Source: Mugil cephalus (taxonomy: Eukaryota > Chordata > Actinopteri > Mugiliformes > Mugilidae). From it: a stretch of DNA of 64,000 nt. The stretch spans positions 37,305,599-37,369,598 of the forward strand of contig NC_061770.1 of NCBI RefSeq assembly GCF_022458985.1. The letters are read 5' to 3'. The notes under the pieces are model-generated. The model did not search any database. It worked only from the letters and a program-made list of their open reading frames with translations, and was not told where the DNA came from. Position 1 is the first letter of the stretch, and every line of letters starts with the position of its first letter. The position numbers and the translations under genes were made by a program. Shown here piece after piece: positions 4,109 to 43,391 of the stretch.

Positions 4109-5552
4109 ATGGCACCTCTAGTGTTTGCATCATTTCTTTCATGTCTAATTTTGGGGACAATGGGTAAGTTATATATTTCTTCTGTCTTTTAGAAACACCA
4201 CTCACAGTTCATTACATTAACTATGGAATTGCTTTGTCTTTCATTCCACTTTAATTCAAACAGCTGATCCGATGTTGTCCTCATCTGTTCACCAAGAGAT
4301 GCGTTTGGTGGCAGCTCACGTTGGCGACAGAGTGACATTAAAATGTTTCTTTAAGAGTAATGTTGTCCCATATCTTTACTGGTTTAAGCAAACTGTGGGA
4401 CAGAAGCCAAGACTCATCTCGGCTTTCTACAAATACAAAAACACCACCTTCTATGATGAGTTCAAGGACAATACACGGTTCAGTCTAGAAACGGGAAATG
4501 GCAAAAACCACTTGACGATCACAGATTTGCGTATTTCAGATTCAGCTATTTACTATTGTGTTTATAATTTACACATATTAGAATTTCTAGACGGCTGTAT
4601 TGTCATTGTAGAGGGCTCAGGTTCGAACATCCAAGCATCGGTCCAACAATCAACCTCCGTCACCGTCCAGCCAGGAGACTCTGTGACTCTGAACTGTACA
4701 GTACACACTGGGACCTGTGATGAAGAACACAGTGTTTACTGGTTCAAAAACAAAGAGGAATCTCATCCAGGGGTCATTTACGCCCACGGAGTCAGGAATG
4801 ATCAGTGTGAGAAGAAAAACAACACACGAACAAACAACTGTGTCTACAACCTGCCGATGAAGAGCCTGAATGAATCTCATGCTGGGACCTACTACTGTGC
4901 TGTTGCCTCATGTGGACAGATACTGTTTGGAAATGGGACCACGCTGGACTTTGAAGGTGAGTGACCTTTCTAGCAGGAATAATTGAACACATTTTAAATT
5001 GATTTTCAAAACGATCTCTGCTTTTAAAACCAAGATCCATCAGGATTTGCAAGTGAGGCGAACAGGCTGGTGTTGGTGTATGTCTTGAGTGGAGCTTTGA
5101 CATTTGCCACCATGCTGAGTGTTTCTCTGGCTTTCATACTGTACCAGAGGAACAAATCCACAGGTAACTGCTTTTTAAAAGAGCTACAAGAAGCTTAAGA
5201 ATGTTTTTCACCTCATTTGACTTTTCGATAAAACCATTTTACTTTATCAGTTTCACAAACAGACTCTCAGACGAGGTTCTCCCCTCCTCCCACAACACAT
5301 GCAGAGGTAAATTCAGTTTTTTATTTTGGTATTTTCGAACATTTTGCCTCACAATTATCTGTTGTGGACATTGTTTTTATGCATGTCTGGTAGAATATTA
5401 CTGATCTACTATTTTTTTGCATGTTTTACCAGAGTAACCAAGATGCCGAAAGTCTCCACTACGCTGCTTTAAATGTTAACCTGCACCTCACATCGAGAAG
5501 ACAGAGAAACAACACCAACAGTGAATGTGTTTACTCTAGTATTAGAGCGTAA
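4109..5552 (+). CDS. nitr: NITR-2, novel immune-type receptor
   Basis: Complete gene of five exons: 4109-4163, 4264-4956, 5035-5163, 5263-5306 and 5433-5552. They total 1041 bases, or 346 residues in frame. Residues 1-18 are a hydrophobic leader. The V domain runs to about 135 (Cys in TLKCF, YWFKQTVGQKP, DSAIYYC). It ends in FLDGCIVIV, an unusual J-like segment where Cys replaces the expected Thr. The I domain follows, with the extra cysteines TGTCDEE and NDQC, then YYCAVASCG and FGNGTTLDF. A transmembrane segment without charge leads to a tail with LHYAAL (ITIM) and CVYSSI. The transmembrane exon could also start at 5044, in frame. The gene is expected to be an inhibitory receptor on cytotoxic cells. 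Its stretch 4133-4711 is nearly identical to 17010-17588 in NITR-6. Confidence 0.92.
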
Positions 5553-5566
5553 AGAGGGACACTGAG

Positions 5567-6063
5567 GGCCAGATCTACTCAAGGTTTGTGTGTATAAAAA
5601 CGCGTGCAAACTCACTGCACGCGCATAAAAACGTACAAACTGATTTACTAACTAGAGTTGCATCTTTCAAAAATAGTGCAAAATAGCATCCAGTTAGCAC
5701 GTTTACCTCAATGGATATGCAATATGGGGCGTTTACATGCAATGCCGGGAGGAAAAAATGCAAATATAGTAATTTAGCACACGCAAAGCGATTTATCAAA
5801 CCTGAAAGTAATTTTCCTAATAGAAATTGCGTCTATACCGTAACCATCTGCGCTGTCTACACCGTACAGCAGACAACTTTGGTGTTAACAGCACATGTCA
5901 TTTTGAGCTTGCGGTCTCAACGGTAAACACCAATAGCAGACGCAAAACCGTCATTTACATACGGCCGTTTGCACCCGTTGCCATTTATGCAATCAGTCTT
6001 AGCAAATCAGCTGCAGTTCCAGCCCACACGCAAAATTCTTTGGCATTTTAGTAGATCTGGAGC
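5567..6063. mobile_element. MITE-like non-autonomous DNA transposon
   Basis: The ends are inverted: CCAGATCTACT near 5570 is matched by AGTAGATCTGG at 6050-6060. The inside is non-coding, about 0.5 kb, and has several GC-rich inverted words such as CGCGTGC and GCACGCGC. No clear target-site duplication is visible, so the superfamily (hAT or Harbinger type) is open. It inserted just 3' of NITR-2. Confidence 0.6.
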
Positions 6064-7479
6064 TATGCGTACTGACTGAGTGAGAAAGCAATTTCTAAGG
6101 AGCTCTTTGGAGATGTGATGCATCTGATCTGGAGATTACCACCTGTTTGTGCTTCCAGTGTGGCAAGATATAGAGATAAACACATAAGAACGTTTTTTCT
6201 CTTGCTGATTTTGTCGGTGTGGTCTAAACCATGTCGTCAGTGTCACCTTTGAAGTCAGTGCCATCAAGTGGGCGGAAAAACAAGAAACAGTTGAGAAAGT
6301 GTAATTATAGGCATATCCACGCCCATTTTGCATTACTGGGCCTTTACTGATCAAATAACCCTATGTATTCAACACATTTAGACATTATTTTGATCTTACG
6401 TCCAATCTATGGAAGTGGCTTGACTAGCTTTGTTACACATGCCACTGTGTGTGCTGGGGAACAAATGTGAATGATCTTATCCACCCTCAGTAATATATGT
6501 AGTCAGTGTGGACTGACTATTGGTGTAATGGTACTTTAAAAGTTAAAAAATACATGTCAGAAAGCTGACCAGCCTGACTAGTGTGACATAATACCCCATC
6601 AACTGGTACAACTTGGTATTACAAGACAGGAGCTAGCTGTTAGCATGCCAAACTTAAGTAGATATTTCTACAATACAGTAATGTAGACATCCTTGACATA
6701 GTATCATAGCTTTTAATTGTTCTATACTGTGCTCATTTTTATTTGAGGGAATTTAGATTTCTTCTTTAAAGCTACAATGTGCAATATTTACGTATAAATG
6801 AACCTGACGTTGAATTCACACAAAGATGACTGAGATAATCGATGCCAAGTAGATCACTTTGCATTTCACAGTATTCCCTGTGCACTGCTGCGGCAGTAGA
6901 AATGTGTTTTACATCAACCTGTGTCTGTGGCAGCATGTGGACATGTGAAGCAGCCTATTTCTGAGAAACTAAGGCTACAGATTCCATGGATTCACTGTCA
7001 TCACTTAGCTAACAATGAGATTTCCAATGAATAAGATGAAAAAGATACCCATCATTCAAAAATTAGTCCATCTTCACTTTACTTTGTATTGTTTTCACCT
7101 TACTTCAACAACAACTGTTCGTTACTTTATGTGCCTGTGGTTCCCAAAAAAGAAATTGTATGCTCGACTTTTCTGTGTTAAAATAAAAAAGTGTTCACTC
7201 TATCATAGTCTCACTCAGGGATCAAATCCTGCGCGTTGATGTCTCTAGTGCATTTAACAGGTACTGAGCCTGGCAATGCTCCACTTTGCTCTAGTGTTTA
7301 CACATTATTGTTCTTTTTTTATCTTATGATTGAAAGGGTGATGCTAACAACAGCAGTATCATGTTCTAAATACGGTCAGTATGTGATTCTGTTTAGGGAA
7401 CCACATCTCAGGGTAGGTAGTGTGAAATTTAGACCATATTTCCTATATGGTGTATAGAGCATGCTGTGACTACAGATAG
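6064..7479. other. Intergenic stretch, nothing recognised
   Basis: AT-rich spacer between the MITE and the NITR-3 promoter. I find no domain-bearing frame, RNA gene or clear repeat. Confidence 0.45.
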
Positions 7480-7501
7480 CCAATCAAAATCAGTCTGGTG
7501 T
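7480..7501 (+). promoter_or_regulatory. Promoter module of NITR-3, weaker match
   Basis: CCAAT at 7480-7484, nine bases, then TCTGGTGT at 7494-7501 in place of TCTTGTCT. CCAAT lies 78 bases before the ATG, the same distance as in NITR-2. Confidence 0.4.
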
Positions 7502-7557
7502 GTGAAGTGAGGAGTAAAGTCAAAGTTCTCTTCATTCGACACTGCACCTCGATCACT

Positions 7558-9009
7558 ATGACACCTCCCAGGTTTGTTTTGTATCTGACATGGCTGTTCT
7601 TGAAGAAAATTGGTGAGTTACATTTCTTCTGTCTCTAACATGCGTCCTTTATGATCTCAATGTTTAAGGTGAATTTACTTTCTGTGAATGTAACGCCGCA
7701 CTTGCTTTGTCTCATTTCTTATCAGCTCAGGCAACTAATGAGAATTTCTCCTCGTCTCCTCGTCAAGAGAAGCGCTTTGTGTCTGCTAATGTTGGCGACA
7801 GTTTGACTTTAAAATGTTTCTATGAGCACAAGGATGCTACGAGGTTTTACTGGTACAAGCAAAGTCTGGGACAGAAACCAAGGCTCGTCTCTACTGTCTA
7901 TATGTTTAATAAAAATGGAACTTTAGATAATGAGTTCAAGGACAATCCACGCTTCCGAGTGGATTCTTCGATGGGTAACAATCACCTGCATATAACAAAT
8001 TTGCAAATTTCCGACTCCGGTACTTACTTCTGTGCAAGAAAGGTTTCATTAAGTATTACATTCGAAGAGGGCACTTTAGTAATTGTAAAAGGTTCAGGTT
8101 TAAGCATTAAAGCATTAGTCCATCAATCAGATTCTGAGACCGTCCAGCAGGGAGACTCTGTGACTCTGAACTGTACCATACACACTGGGACCTGGGATGG
8201 AGAACACCGTGTATACTGGTTCAAAGACGCTGAAGAACCTCAACCAGGACTCATTTACACCAATAGAGACAAGACTGATCAGTGTATGAGGGAAAACAAC
8301 AAAACACACACCTGTGTCTACAACCTGCCGATAAGGAGCGTCAATCGGTCTCATGCTGGAATCTACTACTGTGCCGTTGCCTCATGTGGACACATACAAT
8401 TTGGAAATGGGACGAAGCTGGAATTCGAGGGTATGAAACACTCCAGCAGAAGACCTCTTATTTAATAGTCCTCATTCGTCGAACCTCTGAAACTTCTGCT
8501 CCTCATGTCTTACTCCCTACAGATGAGGTGAAATCTCTTGTCATGGTGTACGTCTTGAGCGGAGCCTTGGTATTCACCACCACCCTGGTTGTTGTGCTGA
8601 TGCTCTTGCTGTGCAAGGTTAGGAAGAAGAACAGCTCCCATTCAGGTACAGGCAACAGGTGCAACATAAATCCAACAACTCGTATTCACTGATTTTTTTT
8701 AAACAAAAAATATTAAAATTGATCTTTCTGTGTTTCACAAGCAGATTTTCAAGCGAGGTTTTCAGCTCCCTGTGCAGAGGTAAATTTGATATAATTGCTC
8801 TGAATTTACATCCAAACTTATTTTTATTGGATAGCTATTCTTTAAAATTCCAACCAGAACCATATTCTAATCTATATTTTGCAATTTGCCATTACCAGGT
8901 TAACCAAGACACTCTCCACTATGCTGCTTTAAGTGTAAACCAGTCCCGCAAATCAAGAAGACAGAAGAGCATCGATACCGAATGTGTTTACTCCAGGGTG
9001 GCACAGTAG
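7558..9009 (+). CDS. nitr: NITR-3, novel immune-type receptor
   Basis: Complete five-exon gene: 7558-7612, 7726-8430, 8523-8645, 8745-8779 and 8899-9009. The total of 1029 bases gives 342 residues in frame. It has a leader, a V domain (LKCFYEHKD, YWYKQSLGQKP, SGTYFCARK, J-like FEEGTLVIV), an I domain (YYCAVASCG, FGNGTKLEF), an uncharged transmembrane segment with several Leu and a Cys-Lys-Val boundary, and a tail with LHYAAL and CVYSRV. In the I domain the usual TGTC is TGTW, so the second extra cysteine (DQC) has lost its likely partner. The fourth exon is nine bases shorter than in other members. The donor after the second exon is GTATGA, weaker than the usual GTGAGT. An inhibitory receptor is expected. 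Confidence 0.92.
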
Positions 9010-9599
9010 AAATTGCACGTATTTCTAATGTCAGCAAAATGCCCAAATGAACATGACTTTTTGTTTCTGGACTTTAAAGAGATCTGACGATCACCACATT
9101 TTCTGTGAAAAGCAGATCTTAAAGAGGAAGATTCTTAAAGTTTTCAAGGAGTTTCAGATTATGGTGTTCTGCTAGCAGCTTCCAGTCTGGAAGATGTTGC
9201 CTGGCGCCATTTCCCACCATTAAAATTCAGGTTATGGAGCAGAATTCTATGCCACAAGTCAACACCAGGAAACCAAAGAACAGTCTATTTTGCCCTTTGT
9301 TTTTGTGACTTAAAGGATGTCTAAAACTCGTTTTTTTTTCTTTTTCCCTTAAATGTAATATTATGTTGTTTTTGATACTACTTGATGCTGTACAACAAGC
9401 CTGCTTTGTGCTTTGAGGACCACGGCAGAAATAAGCAGCATAATTTGACGATCAAATGTTGTGCATTTCACACCTAATAATAAAAAAAACTGATCTATTT
9501 ATGGAAACTGAACTACTATGTGTGTGTCCCTCTTTTTTCAAAGCGTCTTTATTGTTTTGCATTTGAATGAATATTTTACAGATAGTTAGATTCTGTCCA

Positions 9600-9850
9600 G
9601 GAAACCCTTGGGGCAGGTTACTACTATATATGTTCAAATCCAGCTGGTACTCCGGCCTCCTTCCACCTTCCAAAGCTCTTCATTGGTTCATTGGTGATTC
9701 TAAATTGGCTGCAGCTGTGAGTGTGAATGGTTGTCTGCCTCTCTCTGTGTTAGCCCTGCGATAGACCTGTCCAGGGTGTACCCCGCGTCTTGACCAATGA
9801 CAACTGGGACAATCTCCAGTCCCTTGGCGACCCTTGTTGAGTTCTTGATA
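9600..9850. repeat. Fragment of a common teleost dispersed repeat
   Basis: The stretch includes TTGGTGATTCTAAATTGGC, GTGTTAGCCCTGCGATAGAC and CTGTCCAGGGTGTACCCCG. I recognise these words from a retroposon tail that is very common in teleost genomes. The copy is partial and diverged. I am not certain which LINE/SINE family it belongs to. Confidence 0.55.
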
Positions 9851-11175
9851 ACAGATAATAATGCAATAATGAAACTTACAAAGCACTGACCAAATACCAA
9901 GAATGAGAACTACCTGTAACAGTCCAAAAACGTAGGTCTCTATTTAAACAATTCCTTTAGAGCTGTTGCCCCATTGCCTATATTTATAAGACAAGCAGGA
10001 GAGCGTTGGATGTTTATTGAGTCTAAAGACGTCATGGGTGAACACAAATAGGTCTTTCATAGAAAACTATGGGTTCATAGTGAAAACACGCCAGTTTGGA
10101 AGGATTTGTCCTGCGTATGGGTTGAGCTAATAAGCAGTGCTTTCCCCTCAACGTCCACGACCTACGAGCGAAGAACCTTGTCTGACAAAGTGAATGCTCT
10201 GAATGCTTTGAACGCAGAGTGAAGCTAGTAGGAGTGCACAGACGACAAAGATCCCTCTTCAAAACCAAAAGATAAAAGGTGACATGTAAAGCAGCCGTGC
10301 TTCTGTTTCCTGAGGAAGTGAAACTGGCCTTTTCCAGGTTGTCGCCACCAGACGTCAGATGCCATTTGCATGAAGAAGTTGAGCTTTGCTCAACTCAACG
10401 ATTTGTGTCAACTTGCTTCAGCGTCGCTCGCTCGCTCGGTTTTTAGGTCTCTGTGGTTCTTGGCAGGATGTTCGGGTGTGTGCGTGCGTTCACATGATGT
10501 CAATAAACCTTAACGTGAAGACCACATAAACACTCGAAAACATGGCAGTCACTTTTCTAGTAAAAAGCAGTAAAACAAGCACCGCTGCATACAAAATTAA
10601 AAGTACTACTAACTATGGAAGAGACAGCCTATTGCAACAAGAAACATTTATCTCCTGATACCATTCCTGTCCAACTTTATCCCGATGAAAACAGTCTTGG
10701 TTTCTCTTTACTATTGCCAACACCCAAAAGACAGTTTTGGTGAATGTAGTTTTGCTGCAGCATTGGATACAGAAAAGGGTGACGTGAGTTCATAGAGCCT
10801 AAAATACCACCTGCTAGCCAAACACACAGCTAATACCAAGTCCTCCCCCTCGCCAAAGGCAGACCACAGCAGATAGTTTGAAATATAGGCACAATATAGA
10901 GTGTAAGCATGCTGTACCTTAGTGGTTATTCTTTTTTTTCTTCTTCTTTTTGTTTAGCAAATTTGTCCATTCCAATGTTGATAAGATGAAAGTGTTCATT
11001 TAAGGTACAATCGGAACAGATTTGAAAAATAATTAATTGCAACTATGGATAATCATTTTCATTATGTCTTTAATGTTTAAGTAGTTACATTCTCCATCTG
11101 TCTACAACTGATTTTTTTTTTTTTAAGAAACAAATTGACACTGTAGGTGGCAGTGTACATGTGCGTCCTCTTTGG
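9851..11175. other. Intergenic stretch, nothing recognised
   Basis: Spacer upstream of NITR-4 with no recognisable gene. T-rich runs occur near 10930-10950 and 11112-11123. Confidence 0.45.
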
Positions 11176-11197
11176 CCAATGGAAAATGGTCTTGTCT
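11176..11197 (+). promoter_or_regulatory. Promoter module of NITR-4
   Basis: CCAAT at 11176-11180, nine bases, TCTTGTCT at 11190-11197. It lies 81 bases (CCAAT) before the ATG. It is conserved although the gene is broken. Confidence 0.5.
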
Positions 11198-11256
11198 CTT
11201 TAGAGTGGAGAGAGTATTGAGATGTTTTTTCATTCAACACAACAGTCTGAACAACA

Positions 11257-12684
11257 ATGACGTCTCCAAAGATTGTATTCAGCCTGACATGTCTGCTCTT
11301 GGGTGTAATAGGTGAGTTTTTGTGGCTCATATTCATATTGTGGTTTTAGAGTTTATCGTAACTTCTTATGACGTAGTTTAATATCCGTTCATTTTGATTA
11401 CAATGTCTTTCTATACTATGAAAATATTGTAATTTGTAAACTACAGGGCAGATGACCGGACCAAAACCATCCTCGCCGTTACATCAGGAGAGAATGTTTC
11501 GGCTAATGTCGGTGACATGATAACTTTGCAGTGTTTTCATGAAGGCGACACCGCAGGGCTTTACTGGTATAAACAGAGTCTGGGGCAGAAACCAGTTCTC
11601 ATCTCTACCTTCTACAGATTTGAAAGAAATGCCGCCTTTTATAATGAATTCAAAAATGATCCCCGCTTCACACTGGACATCGAAAATAGCAAACACCACC
11701 TGAAGATATCAAATGTGCGTACTTCAGACTCAGCCACATATTACTGCGCGAGTAGCCACGTTTTTATTTTGGAATTTGCTCAGGGCACCACTCTCAGTGT
11801 GATGGGTTCAGCTTTAAATGTTAATGCTTCGGTTCATCAGTCGGCTTCTGAGACCGTCCAGCCTGGAGGCTCTGTGACTCTGAACTGTACAGTACACACT
11901 GAGTCTGTGCAGAACACAGAGTTTACTGGTTCAAAGACTCTGAAGAATCTCATCCTGGGATCATTTACACCGATGGAGGCAGGAATAATCAGTGTAAGAG
12001 GACTCCCTATAAAATAACACACACCTGTGTCTACAACCTGCCAATGGAGAACGTCAGTCTTTCTCAGTCCGGGATCTACTACTGCGCTGTTGCCTCATGT
12101 GGACACATAGTGTTTGGAAATGGGACCAAACTGAACTTCGAGGGTAAGTCTTTTAGCTTTTTCATAATATGGTTTGGTCTCATTTGATGAACTGCGATTG
12201 CACTTCGTGTTACACAAACCAAGTGTCTCCATCTCTGGTTTTGAAGTTGAGCAGGGTCATCCTGTCTTGGTGTATTTCTTGAGCGGAGCTTTGATGTTCA
12301 CCACCGCGTTCAGTGTCATATCAACTTATTTAATGTGTAGGATGAACAAGAGAAACAGCTCCATGGGTAAGTGGTGCCATTCACATCCTACAGTTCTCTT
12401 GTAGAAAAGCATTCAGGATGGATTTTATTCTTGGATTTTTTCTCCCTAGAGCCTGAAGCAGGATTCCCTTTAAGCTCACAGATGAGTTACAAATTATACA
12501 GAAAGAATGTCTGTAGGACAGTAAATTTCTACCGGGCCACTATTTCAATCTATTTTGTTATCAGGGCGGCCAGGAGGAGGGCGACATCCATTATGCTGCT
12601 CTAAGGGTAAACAAATCTAACAGATCAAGGAGACAGACGAGCAGCATAAGGAATGAATGCGTGTACTCCAGCGTAAAACATTAG
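11257..12684 (+). pseudogene. NITR-4, broken novel immune-type receptor gene
   Basis: The exons are recognisable: leader 11257-11311, V/I exon 11447-12143, transmembrane 12247-12366, tail 12450-12481 and 12565-12684 (IHYAAL ITIM, CVYSSV). The V/I exon has two frameshifts. One is in the first V strand near 11497, where the frame of PLHQERMF changes to VSANVGD and about four bases seem missing. The second is in the I domain near 11905-11920, again with about four bases missing. The exon is 697 bases against 705 in NITR-3, which fits two 4-base losses. The donor after the fourth exon also reads AT instead of GT at 12482. Sequence between the breaks still encodes good Ig strands (YWYKQSLGQKP, DSATYYCAS), so inactivation looks recent. 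Confidence 0.85.
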
Positions 12685-13700
12685 AACTGGATTTGTCATT
12701 CATTCTACGTAAGTTTGATTGATATCTCAACATCATTCATACCATAACATCTGCTTTCAGGCTGAGATTTATTACAAGTTGCTTGTATTCCTGAGGCCTC
12801 CTCTCTATCCTTCTCTTGTAGATGATCCAGGCATTTGATTTGGTTCCTTCTTCTTCTCGATGGTTTCATTCAGTTTTCGGTTTCACCACGATGGTGAAAT
12901 TTGGTGAAGAGCACCTGACTTGTATTTTTCTGCTTTTGCTTTGCAACAGTTTACAAGTTTGCCTCCGACTAGCTCAACAGTTATATGAATACATGGCTTT
13001 AAATGGTTTTATGTGTTATGCCACCAATGCTGCTCCAATAAAGGAACTGCAGTTCTTAAATATTTCATATGATGCTTAATTTAACCTCTTTATCAGAGCT
13101 GAAAGTATGTGCCCTTTAATCCTGTATAAATTAGACAACTATTATGTTTCTGTAAACAGCTAAAAATAGCATGCGAACAAATAAGAGGCTAAACACAGTT
13201 AGCAAATAAGTGCTAACTAACACTTTTAATAATTTAACAAGGATATTTTTATAGATATTATACATATGATCAGAATCTTACCCAAAGCACATAAAGGCAT
13301 ACAATGGTTATTGTTAACTATTGTTATTGTAGATTATTACTGTTTAATACTAACTGGAAAAACGCCTTAATATACATTTTAGACTAAACACACCACGCAT
13401 GGTGAACCAAATTTACGTCATAAATAAGAAATCGGTTCTTATTGTTTAGATTAGTATGTAAGAATGGTTCTATATTTTTGTTTATAAGTGAATAAACATA
13501 ATAAAAGAAATGAAAAATTTCCGTCCTTCATTACCTCCACATCATTTTTTCTTGCGCTTCACTCGTTCGCTGGAAGTGAGCACGTGATTTAAACAGGACA
13601 CGCTGTGTCACGCCTGGTTGACCAACCAAGGACGGCGCCGACGACGAATAGGGAACTCAGAATCGAGACTCTCTTCATTCAGCACACCGCTGCAGAAACA
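12685..13700. other. Intergenic stretch, nothing recognised
   Basis: 3' flank of NITR-4 and upstream region of NITR-5. An AATAAA occurs near 13037. The NITR-5 upstream region has CACGTG near 13580 and GACCAACC near 13619 but no clear CCAAT-TCTTGTCT module. Confidence 0.4.
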
Positions 13701-15129
13701 ATGACATCTGCAAAGCTCGTCCTCTGTCTGACCTGGTTGCTCTTTGGGCAAATGGGTGAGCATGTGAATGCTTCTTTGTATCTTTTGGAGTGCATTACCA
13801 TGTTTGCATGTGTGATTAACAGGCATTTGCTTTGTCTCTCATTTCACTTCAGCTAAAATCGTCTCACCTGTTTGCCAAGAGAACACATTTAAGTCCATTA
13901 AGAGTGGAGAAAACTTGACCTTGCCATGTCCATATGAAAGCCGTGCTGCTGCAAGGATTCACTGGTATAAGCAAACTTTGGGACAGAAACCAAGGCTCAT
14001 CTCAACCATCGACGTGAATGGCACAAATCCTGTGAACTACAATGAGTTCGAAAAGGATCCACGCTTTACAGTGGATACGCGAAATGACACATATCCCTTG
14101 ATTGTCACAAATGTGACAATTTCAGACTCTGCTACTTACTACTGTGCAACCAGCGCAACTAGAGACGCTTTAGTCCTGACTTTTGAAAAAGGGACCGTCG
14201 TCGCGGTATGGCAGGGAGGTTTGAACTCTTCAGTCCAGCCAACACCTGACACCACCCAACTGAAATGTTCTGTGACCGTGAGCTGTGGAGGAAACGCCGG
14301 GCTCTGTGATGGAGAACACAGTGTTTACTGGTTTGAAGTCTCTGGAGGATACCATCCAAGAGTCATTTACTCTCACACAGGCAGGAATGATCAGTGTGAG
14401 AGGAAAAACAGCACGAAAGCATACACCTGCGTCTACACTTTGCCAATGAAGAGCCTCAATCTGCCTCATAATGGGACCTACTACTGCGCTGTGGCTTCGT
14501 ATGGATGCATGGTGTTTGGAGACAGGATTGAGCTGGACATAGAGGGTAAGTGAGCTTTTCTGGAGGACCAGTCTCATTTTTTAAGTGTAATGTTCTGTAT
14601 AAGGCAGAAGCTCCGTAATGTCTCCTGGTGTCTGCAGAAGAGGTGAACTTTCTTGTCTTGGTGCACGTCCTGAGCGGAGCCCTGGCATTCGCCACATTTC
14701 TGGTTCTTCTACTGGCGTTCTTAATGTGCCTGATCGCCAAGAGAACCTGCTGCGCATGCGCAGGTACCGCATCTGCTTTTTGTTCGTAGCTGACGAAGAA
14801 TCACACACAGAGCATTTTTCATTTTTTTTTTCTTTTCAGATTCAGATTCAAGAATTTCACCCCCTTCCACAACAAATGCAGAGGTATGTGATTTTGTTGT
14901 GATTAGATATTGTGTTAGCATTCAGTTGTTTTTATCGTGCAGCATTTCCCACAATTTTTACTCCCTCGAGTTCTATATTGTGATTCTCTGGTTCCTGTTT
15001 GATCGCTAGGGCGAGCAAAATGAAGAAGACGTCCATTACGCAGCTTTGAGGCACCACAACATTAAAAGATCGAGAAGACAGAGAAACGATGTAGAGACTG
15101 AATGTGTGTATTCCAGTATAAAGCAGTAG
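13701..15129 (+). CDS. nitr: NITR-5, novel immune-type receptor
   Basis: Complete five-exon gene: 13701-13755, 13853-14545, 14638-14763, 14840-14883 and 15010-15129. The total of 1038 bases gives 345 residues in frame. The V domain has LPCPYES, IHWYKQTLGQKP, DSATYYCAT and a J-like FEKGTVVAV. The I domain is the most divergent here. It has an added VSCGG, keeps LCDGE and NDQC, and its end reads SYGCMVFGDRIELD, so the usual Cys after YYC is moved by two positions and the FGxGT motif is lost. The transmembrane segment is uncharged and followed by a cysteine-rich juxtamembrane stretch (CCACAG region). The tail has VHYAAL (ITIM) and CVYSSI. It is expected to be an inhibitory receptor. Confidence 0.92.
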
Positions 15130-15944
15130 AACAGAGGTGTCTTTATTTTTCAATGGAGAGCTGTGGAGACCTATGCAGAGCTGTTTCAGGCCAATAACTA
15201 TGGGTAAAATATGCTTGACACACGGTTGTTCTTTAAGAGACAGATAGCCCGTATAACAGCTTTCTATTTAAGAGCTAGCATTGATTTTCTTATAAAAAGA
15301 GTTGGCAGTAGTTTTGGATTGCTTCATAGTGAGGGCGATGGGTGGGGTTTATATTTTGAGGTTGTCATATAAGTAATTTTACAAATCACATATGTGTATA
15401 CAAACTTGTGCCCGCTGTGTTGTATAAAATATATATTTTTTTGCAGTTAGGCTAAAATGCTTACCAATTTTGGCGTATTTTAACAGAATTTTGTGTCAGT
15501 TGTTGCTTTACTTTGCCTATTGGTTTGATAAAGGAATGCTTACAGTTTCAAGTGTGTAGTTTCTTTGTTTCTTTGATTTGTCAGCACCTACTGCAACTAG
15601 GGGTCATTCTCTGATCACTGGAGTCGGTCGCAACTTTGTGTAGTTACCTGACCACACGAATCAGCTGTAGGATACACAATGAGGCTGTCACCTTGAGCAC
15701 TGATGGTAGAAATTGGAGACGTTTAACATCTCATAAATTCACAACCATGTGTATCTGCACATTCAAAGAAGTCGACTACTTCAGTGCTACAGGATGCGGT
15801 GAGCATGTGATCATGCTTCCTTATTAATAAGACATAGGCTACCGCATCACGTCTCCTTAACATATCAAACACAGGCTCCTCTGTGAAGAAAGGAGTGAAG
15901 AGAAGAGCAAAGCTCTTTTCATTCACCTCAACAATTAGAACACG
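15130..15944. other. Intergenic stretch, nothing recognised
   Basis: Short spacer between NITR-5 and NITR-6. There is no CCAAT-TCTTGTCT module upstream of NITR-6. The bases before its ATG (CTCTTTTCATTCACCTCAAC) resemble the start-site region of other members. Confidence 0.4.
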
Positions 15945-18346
15945 ATGGCATCTGCACAGGTTTTGATCTGTCTGGCGTGTTTGTTCATGGGGAAAATGGG
16001 TGAGTTTTGTTTGTGTGACTGTTTATTTCTGATTTTTTTGGTGGTAAAAGCAGAAGAAAAAGAAAAAAAAAGAAGAAAAACTTAAGGTAATGGCTGTCGT
16101 CTATGAAAAATGTGCCACTTTTGAAAACCAGAACTTGAAAACAACCCCATTTTTCATATATTTTAGACTAAGCTTTGTCTTAGTTTTGAAAGTTCGGTTT
16201 TAGTTTAAATATGGCAAAATAAATCTGTTGTTCATGCAGCATATACAGTGTTTGCCACCATGCTAATCTTAAAACCAGAAGTTGCAGATAACTTCTGAAA
16301 AGTTGCAGAGAACTTCTGGTGCTTATGTTTCACTGTTTTACTTCACACAACAAATCAAGCTCAGTCTCTTGAGTAAGGATCAAGATACATAAACACTGCA
16401 ACGTTTGTTTTTTTTTTATCTCAAATTTGTTGTGTTCCTGTGCCTGCCATTTGTGTCTTTTAGTTTTCAGTAACTCGTGATATGAATTTAGCAAAAATTA
16501 TATTACGTGATGGTTAATGTGGATTCTGACAGACTTAATTAATTATGAATTTGCTTTTACCCTTTGATTTGATTTCAGCCCAAAGGACTGATTTGAAATC
16601 TTCCTCATTCGTTCATCAAGAGAGTCGTTTCATTTCAGCTAATGTTGGTGAGAAAGTGACTTTGCAATGTTTCCATGAAGGTGATGATTCTGCATGGCTC
16701 TACTGGTACAAACAAACCATCGGACAGAAACCAAGGCTCATATGCACCTTCTATGTGTTTGATACAAGAATCAGTTTTCATAATGAATTCCAGAACAACC
16801 AATGCTTCACAGTGGATACAAGAAAAAGTGTATATCACTTAATGATCACAAACTTGGAAATTTCAGATTCAGCTACCTACTTCTGTGCAACTAGCAATAA
16901 TTTTGTCTTGGATTTCGCAGAAGGGACTATTGTCAGTGTAAGAAGTTTGGGTGTGAATACTAAAGCTTTAATACATCAGTCGGCATCTGAGACTATGCAG
17001 CTCGGAGACTTTCTTTCATGTCTAATTTTGGGGACAATGGGTAAGTTATATATTTCTTCTGTCTTTTAGAAACACCACTCACAGTTCATTACATTAACTA
17101 TGGAATTGCTTTGTCTTTCATTCCACTTTAATTCAAACAGCTGATCCGATGTTGTCCTCATCTGTTCACCAAGAGATGCGTTTGGTGGCAGCTCACGTTG
17201 GCGACAGAGTGACATTAAAATGTTTCTTTAAGAGTAATGTTGTCCCATATCTTTACTGGTTTAAGCAAACTGTGGGACAGAAGCCAAGACTCATCTCGGC
17301 TTTCTACAAATACAAAAACACCACCTTCTATGATGACTTCAAGGACAATACACGGTTCAGTCTGGAAACGGGAAATGGCAAAAACCACTTGATGATCACA
17401 GATTTGCGTATTTCAGATTCAGCTATTTACTATTGTGTTTATAATTTACACATATTAGAATTTCTAGACGGCTGTATTGTCATTGTAGAGGGCTCAGGTT
17501 CGAACATCCAAGCATTGGTCCAACAATCAACCTCCGTCACCGTCCAGCCAGGAGACTCTGTGACTCTGAACTGTACAGTACACACTGGAAGCTGTGGCAC
17601 AGAACACAGTGTTTACTGGTACAAAAAGGAAGAAGAATCTCATCCAGAAATTATTTATACACAAGGAGTCAGGAATGATCAGTGTGAGAGGAAAGACAAC
17701 ACACAAACACACACCTGCATCTTCAACCTGCCGATGAAGAGTCTGAATCAATCTCATGCTGGGACCTACTACTGCGCTGTTGCTGCATGTGGAATCATTG
17801 TGTTTGGTGAGGGAACCAAGCTGGAGTTGGTGGGTGAGTAACTTTATATGAAAGGTTGTTTTATTTTTAGAAATATTTCCTCCCACTGTAACATAGTTAA
17901 AAGCTTTATAATGTCTCCTGCTTTCAGAAAACTCAGAGAAACTGGACTTGGTGTCAGTGTTGAGTGTGGCCGTCACATTCACCACAATCTTAGTGTTTTT
18001 TTTAGTGTGTGAAATCACCAACATCAACAGCTGCTTCTGTACAGGTAATTGCTCTACTTTGTATATAGCGTATATGAATTGAATGTCATTTGTTAAGTTT
18101 TACTCCTGTTTTTCAGACACCCGAGAAAGATTTTCAGATCCATCCACAAAACTTGCAGAGGTAATTTATGCTTCAATAAAAATATTTTTGTTTCTTATTT
18201 CTGACAACGAGTAAATAGTTTACTATTTCCATCACCAGGGTTACCAAAATAAAGATAGCCCCTGTAACAACGAGTCAGGAGAGGCCAACAGGAGAGTGGA
18301 GGACAACACCCGGAGTGAATGTGTGTACTTCAATGTAAAGCAGTAG
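15945..18346 (+). CDS. nitr: NITR-6, chimeric V-V-I immune-type receptor
   Basis: Exons: 15945-15999, 16579-17040, 17141-17833, 17928-18044, 18117-18160 and 18239-18346. They total 1479 bases, or 492 residues, in frame at every junction. The first V domain (residues about 19-140; YWYKQTIGQKP, DSATYFCAT, FAEGTIVSV) runs into the first 20 or so residues of an I domain. At 17009/17010 it switches to the leader exon of a NITR-2-like gene (FLSCLILGTM, residues 163-172) with its donor at 17041. Splicing to 17141 joins a second complete V domain (about 174-290) and I domain (to 403). Transmembrane and tail exons follow. The usual ITIM is gone (SPCNNE where LHYAAL should be). Only CVYFNV remains, which contains a YxN motif. 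Alternatively the locus is two dead or independent halves, with the second half lacking its own start. Confidence 0.75.
17010..17588 (+). repeat. Tract nearly identical to 4133-4711 of NITR-2
   Basis: About 579 bases covering half of the leader exon, intron 1, the V domain and the start of the I domain. I count four substitutions and no indels against NITR-2 at a constant offset of 12877. Beyond 17588 the sequence instead resembles NITR-1. This marks a recent duplication or gene-conversion tract. Confidence 0.85.
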
Positions 18347-18566
18347 AGTTGGACGTTTCTGTCTCAGACTTCATCATTTCTCTTTTAATGTACAATATGA
18401 TGTGTAAATTCGTGCCTCGTTGTCATGTGTGACAACTGCATGACCTTGATTTCCAATAAACTTGTTGAACATGATTCAAACGTATAAAAGACCATTTCCA
18501 CCACTCAGCCCTCATGTGTCGATTATTTGACAGGGAAGAAGTCTTCAAGGCTCAAGAACAAGACAT

Positions 18567-19409: not shown

Positions 19410-21230
19410 CAAAGGTTTTAGGCAGATGTGTAAAAATTATGCTGTAAACAAAAAATTCCTAAATGGAAGTGTTGATGGTTTATTTTCATCATGAATGAAC
19501 AGGAGAGAAATCTAAATCTAATCTGTATTTGGCGTGACCACCCTTTGCCTTCAAGACAGCATCAGTTCCTCGAGGTCCACTTGCACACTGTTTTTGAAGG
19601 ACCTCAGTTGGCAGGTTGTTCCGGACATCTTGGAGAACTTACCACAGATCTTCTGTGGATGTAGGCTTCCTCAAATACTTCTCATTCTTCATGTTATCTC
19701 AGACATACTCCATGATGTTGAGATAAGGGCTCTGTGGAAGCCATGCCGTTACTTCCAGGGCTACTTCTTTAGACTGAAGATAGTTCTTAATGACCTTGGC
19801 TGTATGTTTGGGGTCTTTGTCCTGCTGCAGAATAAATTTGGAGCCAATCATACACCTCGCTGGTAGTATTGCATGATGGATATGCAGCTGCCTGTATTTC
19901 TCAGCCTTGACAACACCATTAATTGTGACCAAATCCCCAACTCCAATTGCAGAAATGCAACCCCAAACCTCCACCATGCTTCACTGTTGTCTGCAGACAC
20001 TCATTATTGTACAGCTATTCCAGCCTTTTGACAAACAAACTACCTTCTGCTACAGCCAAATATACCATATTTTGACTCATCAGTCCAGAGCACAAGTAGC
20101 CGTTTTTCTTCACACCAGTTACTATGTTTTTATTAGGGGTGTAATGATTCGTTTTAAGAACGATTCGATTCGATTCACAATTCCTGGTTCCGATACTATT
20201 CAAGGACGATTTTAGGTAATTTAGAAATATATGATCCGAAACGATTCAGTGGCTTGAAATCGATTCAGTAACTTTTTAGCCAAAAATTAAACCAGTGTGA
20301 CTGAAATAAACACCTACTCAGTGTTTCCTCTACATTCACTTAGGAGTAGCTGGCCACCAGCAGATAACTATCTTGTTCAATATCTACTCTTTCGGGGTTC
20401 TTAATCTACCGGTTACTTTTTATCCGCTGGACGGTGCTCGGTTTATCAATAAAGAACAAGGTTATTATGGCCCAGAAGTTTAACACCACATGTCCGTTTC
20501 TGTTTATTAGCTCCTCTTTTGAGCGCTGACTTTCTCATTACACGCTGGTCTGTTGACAATACCACATGATGGTGGTGACTGACGTTACACGTTAAATTAT
20601 CCGACGTTTCATCGAGTTGTTTTCCTTTGCTCAGGTCACTGTGTGTCACTGGTGGGATGAGATGGAGAGGCAAGGAGATGTGAAAGCGAATGTTAGCATA
20701 GACATTAATTTTGCCATTGATGTTAGCCGGAAGCTAACGCATATTTGTATAACGGTGTTTTCGGTATATAAAACTAATTTGTAAATTTTGTTTGTCCACT
20801 TTTACAGTGTTTCTCAAATAAATACTCTAAGAGGATCCTCTGACGTCCTTAATCCAATGCGTTATTTCCTAGTATCGATACAATTGATTGATTACCTTTT
20901 AAATCGATATTAGATCGATGTATGTCGTCTGGACAGCCAACTTGCCAAGTACAGATCGATGTAGTTGAATCGTAGCAAAATAAACCGATTCATCGATGTG
21001 GTGGATGAATCATTATACCCCTAGTTTTTATCCATAGTTGAGTCACATCTCTGGACAGTAGATGGTTGTACCTGGGTCCCACTGCTTTCTGCAACTCTGG
21101 AAATAAGCTTGATGTGTTTTTTACAGTCCTTTTACCTATGAGGACTGATGCTGGTTTGAAGACAAGGGGTAGTAACACCAAATATTGATGTGACTTAGAT
21201 TTTTCTTTGTTCATTCACTTGGCAGAAAAA
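19410..21230 (-). mobile_element. Degenerate Tc1-like transposon, copy a, split by a hAT-like insert
   Basis: The minus strand encodes a fragment of Tc1 transposase with KFILQQDKDPKHTAK, the DDE-domain motif around the second Asp, followed by WLPQSPYLNIMEY, which corresponds to WPxQSPDLNPIE of active elements. The expected catalytic region is altered. The plus-strand left end carries words from the family's terminal repeat (AGGCAGATGTG near 19421). A hAT-like element occupies 20134-21023. Equivalent copies lie at about 25577, 30850, 35930 and 40755. Confidence 0.75.
20134..21023. mobile_element. Non-autonomous hAT-like element with 8-base target duplication
   Basis: The left end TAGGGGTGTAATGATTCG is matched by the inverted right end (TAGGGGTATAATGATTCA on the minus strand), 16 of 18 bases. 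The flanks are direct repeats of GTTTTTAT (20126-20133 and 21024-21031), and an 8-base duplication is typical of hAT transposition. The other Tc1 copies in the window carry a single GTTTTTAT at the same place (for example 26298-26305), so they preserve the empty site. The 890-base body has no transposase frame. Confidence 0.88.
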
Positions 21231-37145: not shown

Positions 37146-38465
37146 ATGATGACGTCTGTAAGTTGTTGTACTTCCATGTTTGTTCTTGAAGGGTGAGTGT
37201 GTTTTGTGATGGTAGTTATATTTAGTGACACAAATTGTGTCTCATTTCTATATGTAATTTAACTTGTAAAATATGAATAACTATGTCTTTGCTTTTCAGT
37301 AGGAGACCATCAGTCCTATCTTTTCATCAAGAGAGTGCTTCAAATCAGTAAAGTTGGTGAAAGTGTAATCTTGCTTGTTCTATGAAAATTATGTGTCAGC
37401 AAGGTTTTATTGGTACAAGCAAAATTGGGACAGAAACCAAAGCTCATTTTACCTTCTATGTCTATGATGATTCTGAAGTATTTATAATGAATTTGTGAAC
37501 AATTCAGCTTCACACTAGACATTAAAATGGTAAAAACCACTTAAGTATTTCACATTTACATATTTCAGACTCAGCTACTTATTATGTGCATGTAGAGTTC
37601 AGTAATTTTTGAATTTGCAGAAGGTGTTACAGCAGTGTAAAAGGTTCAGGTTGAATGTTAACATTCAGTTCATCATCTTCATCTGAGACGTCCAGCTAGG
37701 AGACTCTGTGACTCTGACTGTACAGTAACACTGGGACCTGTGATGGAGAACACAGAGTTTACTGGTTCAAGTATCTGAAGAATCTCATCCAGGACTCATT
37801 TACATCATGAGGCAGAATGATAGTGTGAGGGAAAAGTAAGACAAAACAGCACTGGTCTACAACTGCCAATGAGAACCTGACTCTGTTCATAATGGATCTA
37901 TACTGTGCTGTTGCCTCATGTGGACAATATATTTGGAAATGGGACCAAGTTGGAGTTGAAGAGTGAGTAGAACTGTACAGATGTTTCTGATTGATTAACA
38001 GTTATGATATTCCTTAAGTGATGTTGTTATGTCATTCCATGTCTGCCTCACGTGCAGATGAGGAGGTTTTTTGTATGGTGTATTCTTGAGTGTGCTTGGC
38101 GTTCACCACTATCTGACACTTTCACTGGCTGCCTTACTGTACACAAAGAGAAAGGCCAGCAAGTACAGGTAAATTGTATGTTTATCAGTGATTAGTGAAT
38201 TTTAACTCATAGAAACACTATTTTTTGTGTGTTTCAGAGTCTAGAACATTTTCGGTTCATACCCAATGACTCGAGGTATCCAGATACTTCAAAATATCTT
38301 TTTAAATGTTTCTCTTAGGATGTGACACATTATAGTTGTTGTTTTTATTCTATTAGCAAGTTTCCAGGCTGAAGAAACTCCATACGCTGTTTAAGTGTAA
38401 GAAGGCAATCGATCCAGAAGTCAAAGAGATGATACAGAGATAATGTATTACTCGTGTTAGAATAA
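37146..38465 (+). pseudogene. NITR-10, apparent pseudogene, deletion-damaged copy of NITR-8
   Basis: All five exons can be traced: about 37146-37192, 37300-37962, 38058-38168, 38238-38275 and 38357-38465. Splice signals are mostly kept. Every exon contains single-base losses compared with NITR-8, so no long frame survives. The shared peculiarities of NITR-8 (ATGATG start, ACACAGAGTTTACTGG in the I domain, AGTAAG after GAAA) show which gene it copies. The same density of losses in introns and spacer argues for sequence error over real decay. The true gene may be intact. Confidence 0.7.
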
Positions 38466-42062: not shown

Positions 42063-43391
42063 ATGACATCTGTAATGTTTCTTTTCTTCCTGACATGTTT
42101 GTTCTTGAAGGGTGAGTTGTGTTTTTGTGATGGTAGTTTCTAAGTTAGTGACTCTGTTTCAAATAGTTTCTCATTTCTATACTATAATTCATCCGGAAAA
42201 ATATGAAATCAACTGTGTCTTTGCTTTTTCAGCTCAGGAGACACATCAGTCATCATTTGTTCGTCAAGAGAGTGGCTCAGATCAGTAAATGTTGGTGAAG
42301 TGTAATTTGCGATGTTTTATAAATCATTTGTCAGCAAGGTTTTATTGGTATAGCAAACATTGGGACAGAAACCAAAGCTCTTTACTTACGTCTATGAAAA
42401 ACTGAGTATTTTATAATGAATTTGTGAACACTCACGCTTCACATGGAAATTAAAAATGGTAAACCACTAAGTATTTCAGATTTACATATTTCAGACTCAG
42501 TATTATACTGTGCATGTAGACTTTCAGTAATTTGATTGCAGAAGTGTTACAGTCAGTGTAAAAGGTTCAGGTTTGAATATTAACATTCAGTAGTCTTATC
42601 TGAGATCATCCAGCTAGGGACTCTGTGACTCTGAACTGTACAGACACACTGACCTGTGATGGAGAACACAGAGTTTATGGTTCAAGTCTCTGAAGATCTC
42701 ACAGGACTCATTTCACTCATGAGGCAGGATGATAGTGTGAGAGGAAAAGTAACAAAACACGCAATGTGTCTACAACCTGCCAATGGAGAACTGACTCTGT
42801 CTCATAATGGATTACTACTGTGCTGTTGCTCATGTGGAACATACTTTTGAAATGGACAAGTTGGAGTTGAGAGTGAGTAGAACTGTAACAGATGTTTCTG
42901 ATTGATTAACAGTTCAGATTATTCCTTAAGATGAGTTGTTAATGTCATTCCAGTCTGCCTCATGCTGCGATGAGGGGTTCTCTTGTTGGTGTATTTCTTG
43001 AGTGGTGCTTTGGCGTTCACACTATCCTGACACTTTCACTGCTGCCTTACTGTACACACAGAAGAGAAAAGGCCAGCAAGTACAGGTAATTGTACTGTTT
43101 ATCACGTATTAGTGAATTTAAATCATAGAAACACTAATTTTTTGTGTGTTTCAGAGTTCATGAAAATTTTCGGCTTCATACCAATGAACTCAGAGGTTCC
43201 AGATAACTTTCAAATAATCTTTTGTTAAATGTTTCTCTAGGTATGTGACATTATGAGTTGTGTTTTCTATTCTTTAGCAGAGTTTCCAGGCTGAAGAAAA
43301 CCTCCATTACTGCTTAAGAGTAAAGAAGGCACGATCCAGAAGTCAAAGAGATGACACAGAGGATAATGTATCACTCTGGTGTTAGAAAAAT
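42063..43391 (+). pseudogene. NITR-11, apparent pseudogene, deletion-damaged mosaic copy
   Basis: The leader exon 42063-42111 is intact and equals that of NITR-9. The V/I exon (42233-42872), transmembrane exon (about 42970-43085), 43155-43195 and the last exon (43278 to about 43391) carry many single-base losses. The V half resembles NITR-9 (AAATCATTTGTCAGC). The I half resembles NITR-8 (CCTGTGATGGAGAACACAG, GAGAGGAAAAGTAA). The last exon and 3' flank again resemble NITR-9 (TTAAGAGTAAAG, GATGACACAGAG). It therefore seems to be a distinct mosaic locus, poorly sequenced, and not just a second read of NITR-9. Confidence 0.65.

Follow-up and report, generated by a model that had tools for sequence, protein, structure and literature searches.

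In the cited passages, NITRs are described with one or two Ig domains and with a J-like motif, FGXGTXLXV, and those of medaka (chromosomes 18 and 21) and pufferfish are of the type in which V and I share one exon (PMC2442602). V-exon skipping is on record in the family, since zebrafish Nitr9SS, one of the isoforms of nitr9 described in the cited section, is made without the V exon (PMC3463160). Two further systems show how immune receptor genes may acquire or exchange domains. In LAIR1- and LILRB1-insert antibodies an Ig-domain exon with its splice sites enters a break in an immune receptor gene and adds a domain, a somatic event in the switch regions of B cells according to the part of the report cited (PMC11200687). 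The KIR receptor cluster, as described in the cited part, also has its domains reshuffled in the germline, its fusion genes arising through chromosomal recombination that entails deletion (PMC7516082).

Here we analyse a gene of the grey mullet Mugil cephalus located at positions 15945-18346 of a window of 64,000 nucleotides (C1:37305599-37369598) from a genome assembly of 634.8 Mb in 24 contigs. All coordinates below are window coordinates; the exons, the insert and the source gene are on the forward strand. Like the medaka and pufferfish NITRs of the cited passages, this gene has a leader, a single V-I exon, a transmembrane exon, two tail exons, an ITIM-like tail, a six-cysteine I domain and a place in a cluster; unlike them, it has two V domains, an intron between these and an internal leader remnant (PMC2442602). 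Isoforms with and without a V exon from one gene are predicted here as they are described for zebrafish nitr9, but where the zebrafish choice is between V and no V, skipping in the mullet is predicted to swap one V domain, V1, for the other, V2 (PMC3463160). As in the insert antibodies, an Ig-domain exon has been added together with its splice sites; the mullet insert is, however, germline rather than somatic, was copied between paralogs and has one homologous edge (PMC11200687). The cluster resembles that of the KIR genes in reshuffling domains in the germline, but by an insertion in which no sequence was lost (PMC7516082).

The original prediction had held that known NITRs have one or two Ig domains. 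This agrees with the cited part of the medaka paper (PMC2442602), but database models with more than two do exist. Channa striata Q5P01_002245 (V-I-I) and a gar protein of 589 aa (V-I-V-I) are NITR-like and, as the predicted mullet product, exceed two Ig domains; neither is V-V-I, and both are unreviewed predictions with the domain order read by eye. Several such models, among 13 inspected from the best 120 of 2392 matches, have the look of neighbouring genes run together. From the best 120 of another 389 matches eight were inspected; judged by eye, seven are V-I, and the eighth, P0146 (Siganus), is a model spanning several genes with V running into V. No clean V-V-I protein was thus found among the 21 inspected from these two sets of best 120 matches. 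Since V-I proteins align their I domain to V2, search coverage fails to separate V-V from V-I. A search of the open-access literature, judged by titles and the beginnings of abstracts, gave no paper that we recognised as describing a V-V-I NITR.

Exon structure and NITR identity

The gene consists of six exons (55+462+693+117+44+108 = 1479 bases) that form one frame of 492 aa plus stop, with GT-AG borders at all five introns. Its product has the order leader, V1, I stub, FLSCLILGTM, V2, I, transmembrane segment and tail. The leader exon (15945-15999) reads MASAQVLICLACLFMGKM and is that of the gene that we refer to as the recipient; the 5' region around it, within 15864-16018, is common to many paralogs at 67-74% identity. 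Exon 2 (16579-17040; 462 bp, starting and ending in phase 1) encodes V1 with J-like motif FAEGTIVSV, an I-domain stub that extends to 17009, and a leader remnant at 17010-17040. Intron 2 (17041-17140) is identical to intron 1 of what we call the source gene. Exon 3 (17141-17833) contains V2 and the start of an I domain, both copied, followed by the rest of the I domain, which is the recipient's own; the border lies within 17551-17588. It is followed by the transmembrane exon (17928-18044), a first cytoplasmic exon (18117-18160) that agrees with public model P0003, and a second (18239-18346) with ITIM-like ECVYFNV and the stop. A polyadenylation signal AATAAA is found past the stop at 18455.

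Much of this had been anticipated. The original prediction proposed six exons of 1479 bases without phase conflict, and joining them indeed gives the open 492-aa frame. The in-frame switch after ETMQLGD at 17009/17010 to FLSCLILGTM proved exact, the latter is hydrophobic leader sequence as claimed (in the source gene the intact leader is MAPLVFASFLSCLILGTMA), and both the kept leader splice donor and the V-V-I reading frame were borne out. That the junction is unlike random debris accords with a BLAST E-value of 0.0 over 836 bp. The accompanying argument that a fusion would be in frame once in three is fair but weak; at the left joint the chance of keeping the frame was one in three. The short I stub is present, but the I domain has not been reduced to it, as the rest is found 547 bp on.

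Both V domains are of V-type and carry a J-like motif, that of V2, FLDGCIVIV, being more deviant than that of V1. The tail motif ECVYFNV is an ITIM-like variant, as judged by eye against the ITIM consensus. This one ITIM-like motif is combined with an uncharged transmembrane window, VSVLSVAVTFTTILVFFLV, as in the inhibitory NITR type. By eye, the translated I domain has six cysteines between LNC and AAC inclusive, which is the number given for NITRs in the cited passage (PMC2442602). The predicted full product has three Ig domains and the product that skips exon 2 has two, against one or two in the NITR description. Sea bass 'Novel immune-type receptor 5' shows 59% identity over 60% of the query. 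The gene is part of a NITR cluster of 51 merged V, V-I or I matches, all on one strand in 253 kb. Just one pair of matches, 16581-17027 and 17134-17835, is less than 1 kb apart, and this is the only V-V-I case seen in the cluster.

Origin of the second V exon

The stretch 17010-17556 matches 4133-4679, 12.9 kb upstream, with 4 mismatches in 547 bp (99.3% identity; 98.5-100% for its individual segments), and comprises the end of a leader exon, a 100-bp intron, V2 and the first part of an I domain. Both edges are informative. On the left, similarity starts exactly at 17010, the sequences 5' of 17010 and 4133 being unrelated with at most 1 bp of microhomology. On the right, an ungapped comparison of 17010-17588 with 4133-4711 has the same 4 mismatches in 579 bp, after which identity drops to about 80%. 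Here the source and the recipient I domain are identical over a block of 38 bp (17551-17588), and the copy's right edge can be located only to within this block. The source gene (4109-5552; LOC125021504, P0004) is an intact V-I NITR with a leader exon from 4109 and the full leader MAPLVFASFLSCLILGTMA. As this leader contains FLSCLILGTM, the remnant corresponds to the second half of the source gene's leader, and as the source gene is intact with its full leader, copying went from 4133 to 17010.

The recipient lost 0 bases. The net addition of 547 bases consists of 31 of leader, 100 of intron and 416 of V and I, and is predicted to add 447 bases to the mRNA, a multiple of three. When 17009 is joined to 17557 an unbroken V-I exon results, which aligns with all four upstream paralogs without a gap at the joint (89-95%). 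V1 plus stub shows 95.1, 91.1, 90.3 and 91.1% identity to these four, where the last three values exclude a deletion in the paralogs concerned, and 17589-17845 shows 91.4, 90.3, 89.5 and 89.9%. The second half of V1 plus stub is 96.9% identical to the paralog at about -18 kb, to which the two parts of the I domain show 96.5% (a value shared by one other paralog) and 94.5%. Similarity is lower, at 83-86%, for the first half of V1 and the end of its intron. Since the joined empty site matches the paralogs without a gap at the joint, the recipient was an ordinary V-I NITR before the insertion.

On this comparison, then, we read the V-V-I gene as a one-sided ectopic copy-and-paste into a V-I NITR and not as a fusion of two genes. 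The original prediction had the front of one NITR fused by recombination to a second NITR. What is seen instead is an insertion, with the source gene still in place at 4109-5552, and the sequence after 17557 turns out to be the rest of the first gene, by the 96.5 and 94.5% identities to V1's paralog. With the finding of the empty site, fusion of neighbouring genes by deletion ceased to be the simplest account. Three sources for the gene had also been considered, as a first BLAST gave the I domain 77-82% identity to the V1 paralogs; V2 dominated these alignments, and a comparison by segment corrected the values. Origin as an inserted copy, together with leader-V1-V2-I splicing in case of transcription and leaving expression itself aside, is in our judgement probable.

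The insertion may have started with a double-strand break in the recipient I domain, between GGAGAC and TCTGTG. The right-hand end would have invaded the source gene by means of at most 38 bp of perfect I-domain homology and been extended leftward, through the source V domain and intron 1 into the leader exon. Once released, the extended end would have been ligated to the left-hand end over a microhomology of no more than 1 bp, and a two-V cassette gene would have been created in one step. Templated insertion by one-ended invasion leaves one homologous and one non-homologous edge, keeps the source and leaves the target intact, all of which is found for 17010-17556. A gene conversion tract replaces sequence at unchanged length, whereas here 547 bp were added net and nothing was replaced. 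A template switch during replication would give the same trace as the break-and-invade steps, from which it is not distinguishable.

The insert captures, nearly unaltered, one step of possible domain gain in a germline receptor cluster: a V exon copied into a neighbouring gene with its splice sites and with the frame kept. Survival of the source, the target and relatives with the empty site makes it possible to resolve the left edge to a single base and the right edge to within 38 bases.

Predicted products, age and expression

All splice sites derive from genes that read intact, for which reason the default mRNA should be leader-V1-V2-I-TM-tail, encoding a V-V-I protein of 492 aa, provided that the gene is transcribed. 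As exon 2 is in phase 1 at both ends, a transcript that skips V1 would encode an ordinary receptor of 338 aa, leader-V2-I-TM-tail, in which V2 replaces V1. The original prediction got the three-domain frame right but missed this two-domain alternative offered by the symmetric V1 exon. Retention of the 100-base intron gives, by translation, a V1 protein of 181 residues that ends before the membrane exon.

Pfam V-set has three passing stretches in the spliced protein, with 58.5 bits for exon 2 alone (cut-off 26). An AlphaFold model of exon 2, built with 51 relatives, has a pLDDT of 80-96 per block of ten residues for residues 11-120 and a mean of 77.3 for the whole, and V1 is confidently predicted to fold. 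For residues 125-153 the pLDDT is below 50, suggesting a disordered tail from 125 that includes stub and remnant. PDB sequence and fold searches returned antibody-type V domains among the matches listed (60 and 50), with nothing beyond the V fold. The linker between V1 and V2 would comprise about 40 residues with an exposed hydrophobic FLSCLILGTM and a spare cysteine. Hydropathy over 19 residues is 1.34 for the remnant versus 1.69 for the leader and 2.51 for the membrane span; two other stretches of the protein, at 1.51 and 1.43, score as high as the remnant or higher. Since the remnant is less hydrophobic than both leader and membrane span, it is expected to act as a floppy, sticky linker and not as a second membrane span. 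It could cause misfolding of the V-V-I product.

Three of the 4 differences within the 547 bases change an amino acid and one is silent, with 0 differences in the 131 leader and intron bases. At 17337 the insert has a base that is absent from the other 47 aligned V-I exons (3 of the 47 are gapped there), and as it is unique the copy has begun to drift. An ungapped exact-seed scan of the 253 kb detected four tracts of at least 500 bases with less than 1% difference, the insert tract included, in a list of near-identical tracts that is complete down to about 264 bp. In a neutral simulation the probability that the whole frame and the splice sites are still intact at the copy's age was 0.15-0.77, a range set by the indel share and by the divergence assigned to its branch. 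Given a young insertion (4 mismatches in 547 bp) and likely intactness under neutrality, the fact that the frame is open says little about function.

Public model LOC125021652 (P0003, 317 aa) takes Met 17149, within exon 3, as its start and runs to the stop at 18346; it lacks both leader and V1. Met 17149 is preceded by an in-frame stop in the intron, so transcription beginning in this intron would yield the P0003 protein. A protein search with leader plus V1 gave 27 matches of 43 candidates (proteins of about 95-302 residues) with 63-64% identity at best, and this V1 was not found among them. A full V-V-I model would top the whole-protein search; none did. The public model and these searches speak against a leader-V1-V2 mRNA, or at least lend it no support. 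The insertion may therefore be real and the locus silent, or a pseudogene in the making, with no V-V-I protein formed, an account that shares the origin proposed above and differs in the product. The omission of leader and V1 from the public model, the amino-acid changes at three of the copy's four differences, and the neutral intactness that is quite likely at its age all point this way, but the frame, the five GT-AG introns, the paralog-like 5' region, the stop and AATAAA are all intact. We give it a little less than an even chance.

At the other extreme, a V-V-I NITR would be made and would work, with a single germline copying event having produced a cassette for either tandem V domains or, by skipping of V1, a swapped V. 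The remnant, which holds a spare cysteine and a portion of a signal peptide together with its cleavage region, might then serve as a linker for dimer formation or as an internal site at which signal peptidase releases V1, and NITR clusters may often diversify by one-sided pasting of exons. We regard this combination as rather unlikely. If transcribed, the gene would put two things to a natural test: the tolerance of NITRs for an additional V domain plus an internal leader remnant, and the exchange of V exons by splicing.

Alternative histories, recipient ancestry and other cluster members

A history in two steps would also lead to the present arrangement: the I domain of one NITR would first have been joined, by deletion, to the leader of a second NITR, whose V would afterwards have been replaced through conversion from 4133. 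Near-identical tracts between paralogs are common in the cluster, and a later gene conversion would likewise end at the homology edge 17010. Such a history nevertheless requires two events and has the I domain resume within 32 bp of the point of interruption, a coincidence of roughly 5% (32/693), while the flanks on both sides best match the same paralog (with one tie). We consider it very improbable. Misassembly at 17010 is unlikely, and that the assembler pasted source-gene sequence into the recipient is the least credible account of all: the close paralogs are only 12.9 kb apart and the procedure of PacBio subreads, WTDBG2 and short-read polishing given in the cited section (PMC9247318) can blur paralogs, but the subreads, at over 30 kb, are far longer than the 547-bp insert, the 253 kb analysed contain no N, the insert departs from the source at 4 positions, at one of which its base is unique among the 48 aligned exons, and its left edge is without homology that could mislead an assembler. 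The same section describes 24 pseudo-chromosomes of 634.85 Mb, assembled by WTDBG2 from PacBio subreads of over 30 kb with Illumina polishing (PMC9247318).

Single insertion of a copy into a V-I NITR remains our preferred reading, and the recipient may have had a composite past of its own. Headless NITR pieces, consisting of the end of I, TM and tail, are found downstream at window coordinates 96093-96227 and 107698-107874 with no V match just upstream, and are the best match (82-94%) to intron 3, the TM exon and the tail of the recipient. By these matches to its 3' part the recipient looks mosaic even before the insertion. At the other end, 16019-16449 in intron 1 (431 bp, most of that intron) has cluster matches of only 33-35 bp, and over 45-84 bp the leader is no more than 77-87% identical to the V1 paralogs. 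The weak matches suggest another, older join or insertion in this 5' part.

Upstream V1-type paralogs at window positions -12922, -5570 and -522 (C1:37292676, 37300028 and 37305076) have a common deletion inside the V domain, with V-I matches of 645 bp versus 702 bp, and one of these is apparently annotated as an ordinary protein (P0116, LOC125021616). NITR V-I stretches at 37329-37936 and 42249-42844, with longest open stretches of 45 and 65 aa, are apparent pseudogenes. What we take, by eye, to be the remnant of a Tc1-type transposon is located at about 19500-20100. Further downstream, window coordinates 182316-196050 harbour five tandem V-I matches (753-762 bp) that lack a single long frame (122-153 aa), in which V and I are perhaps encoded by separate exons; parts of the first three differ from one another by 0 to 0.3%.
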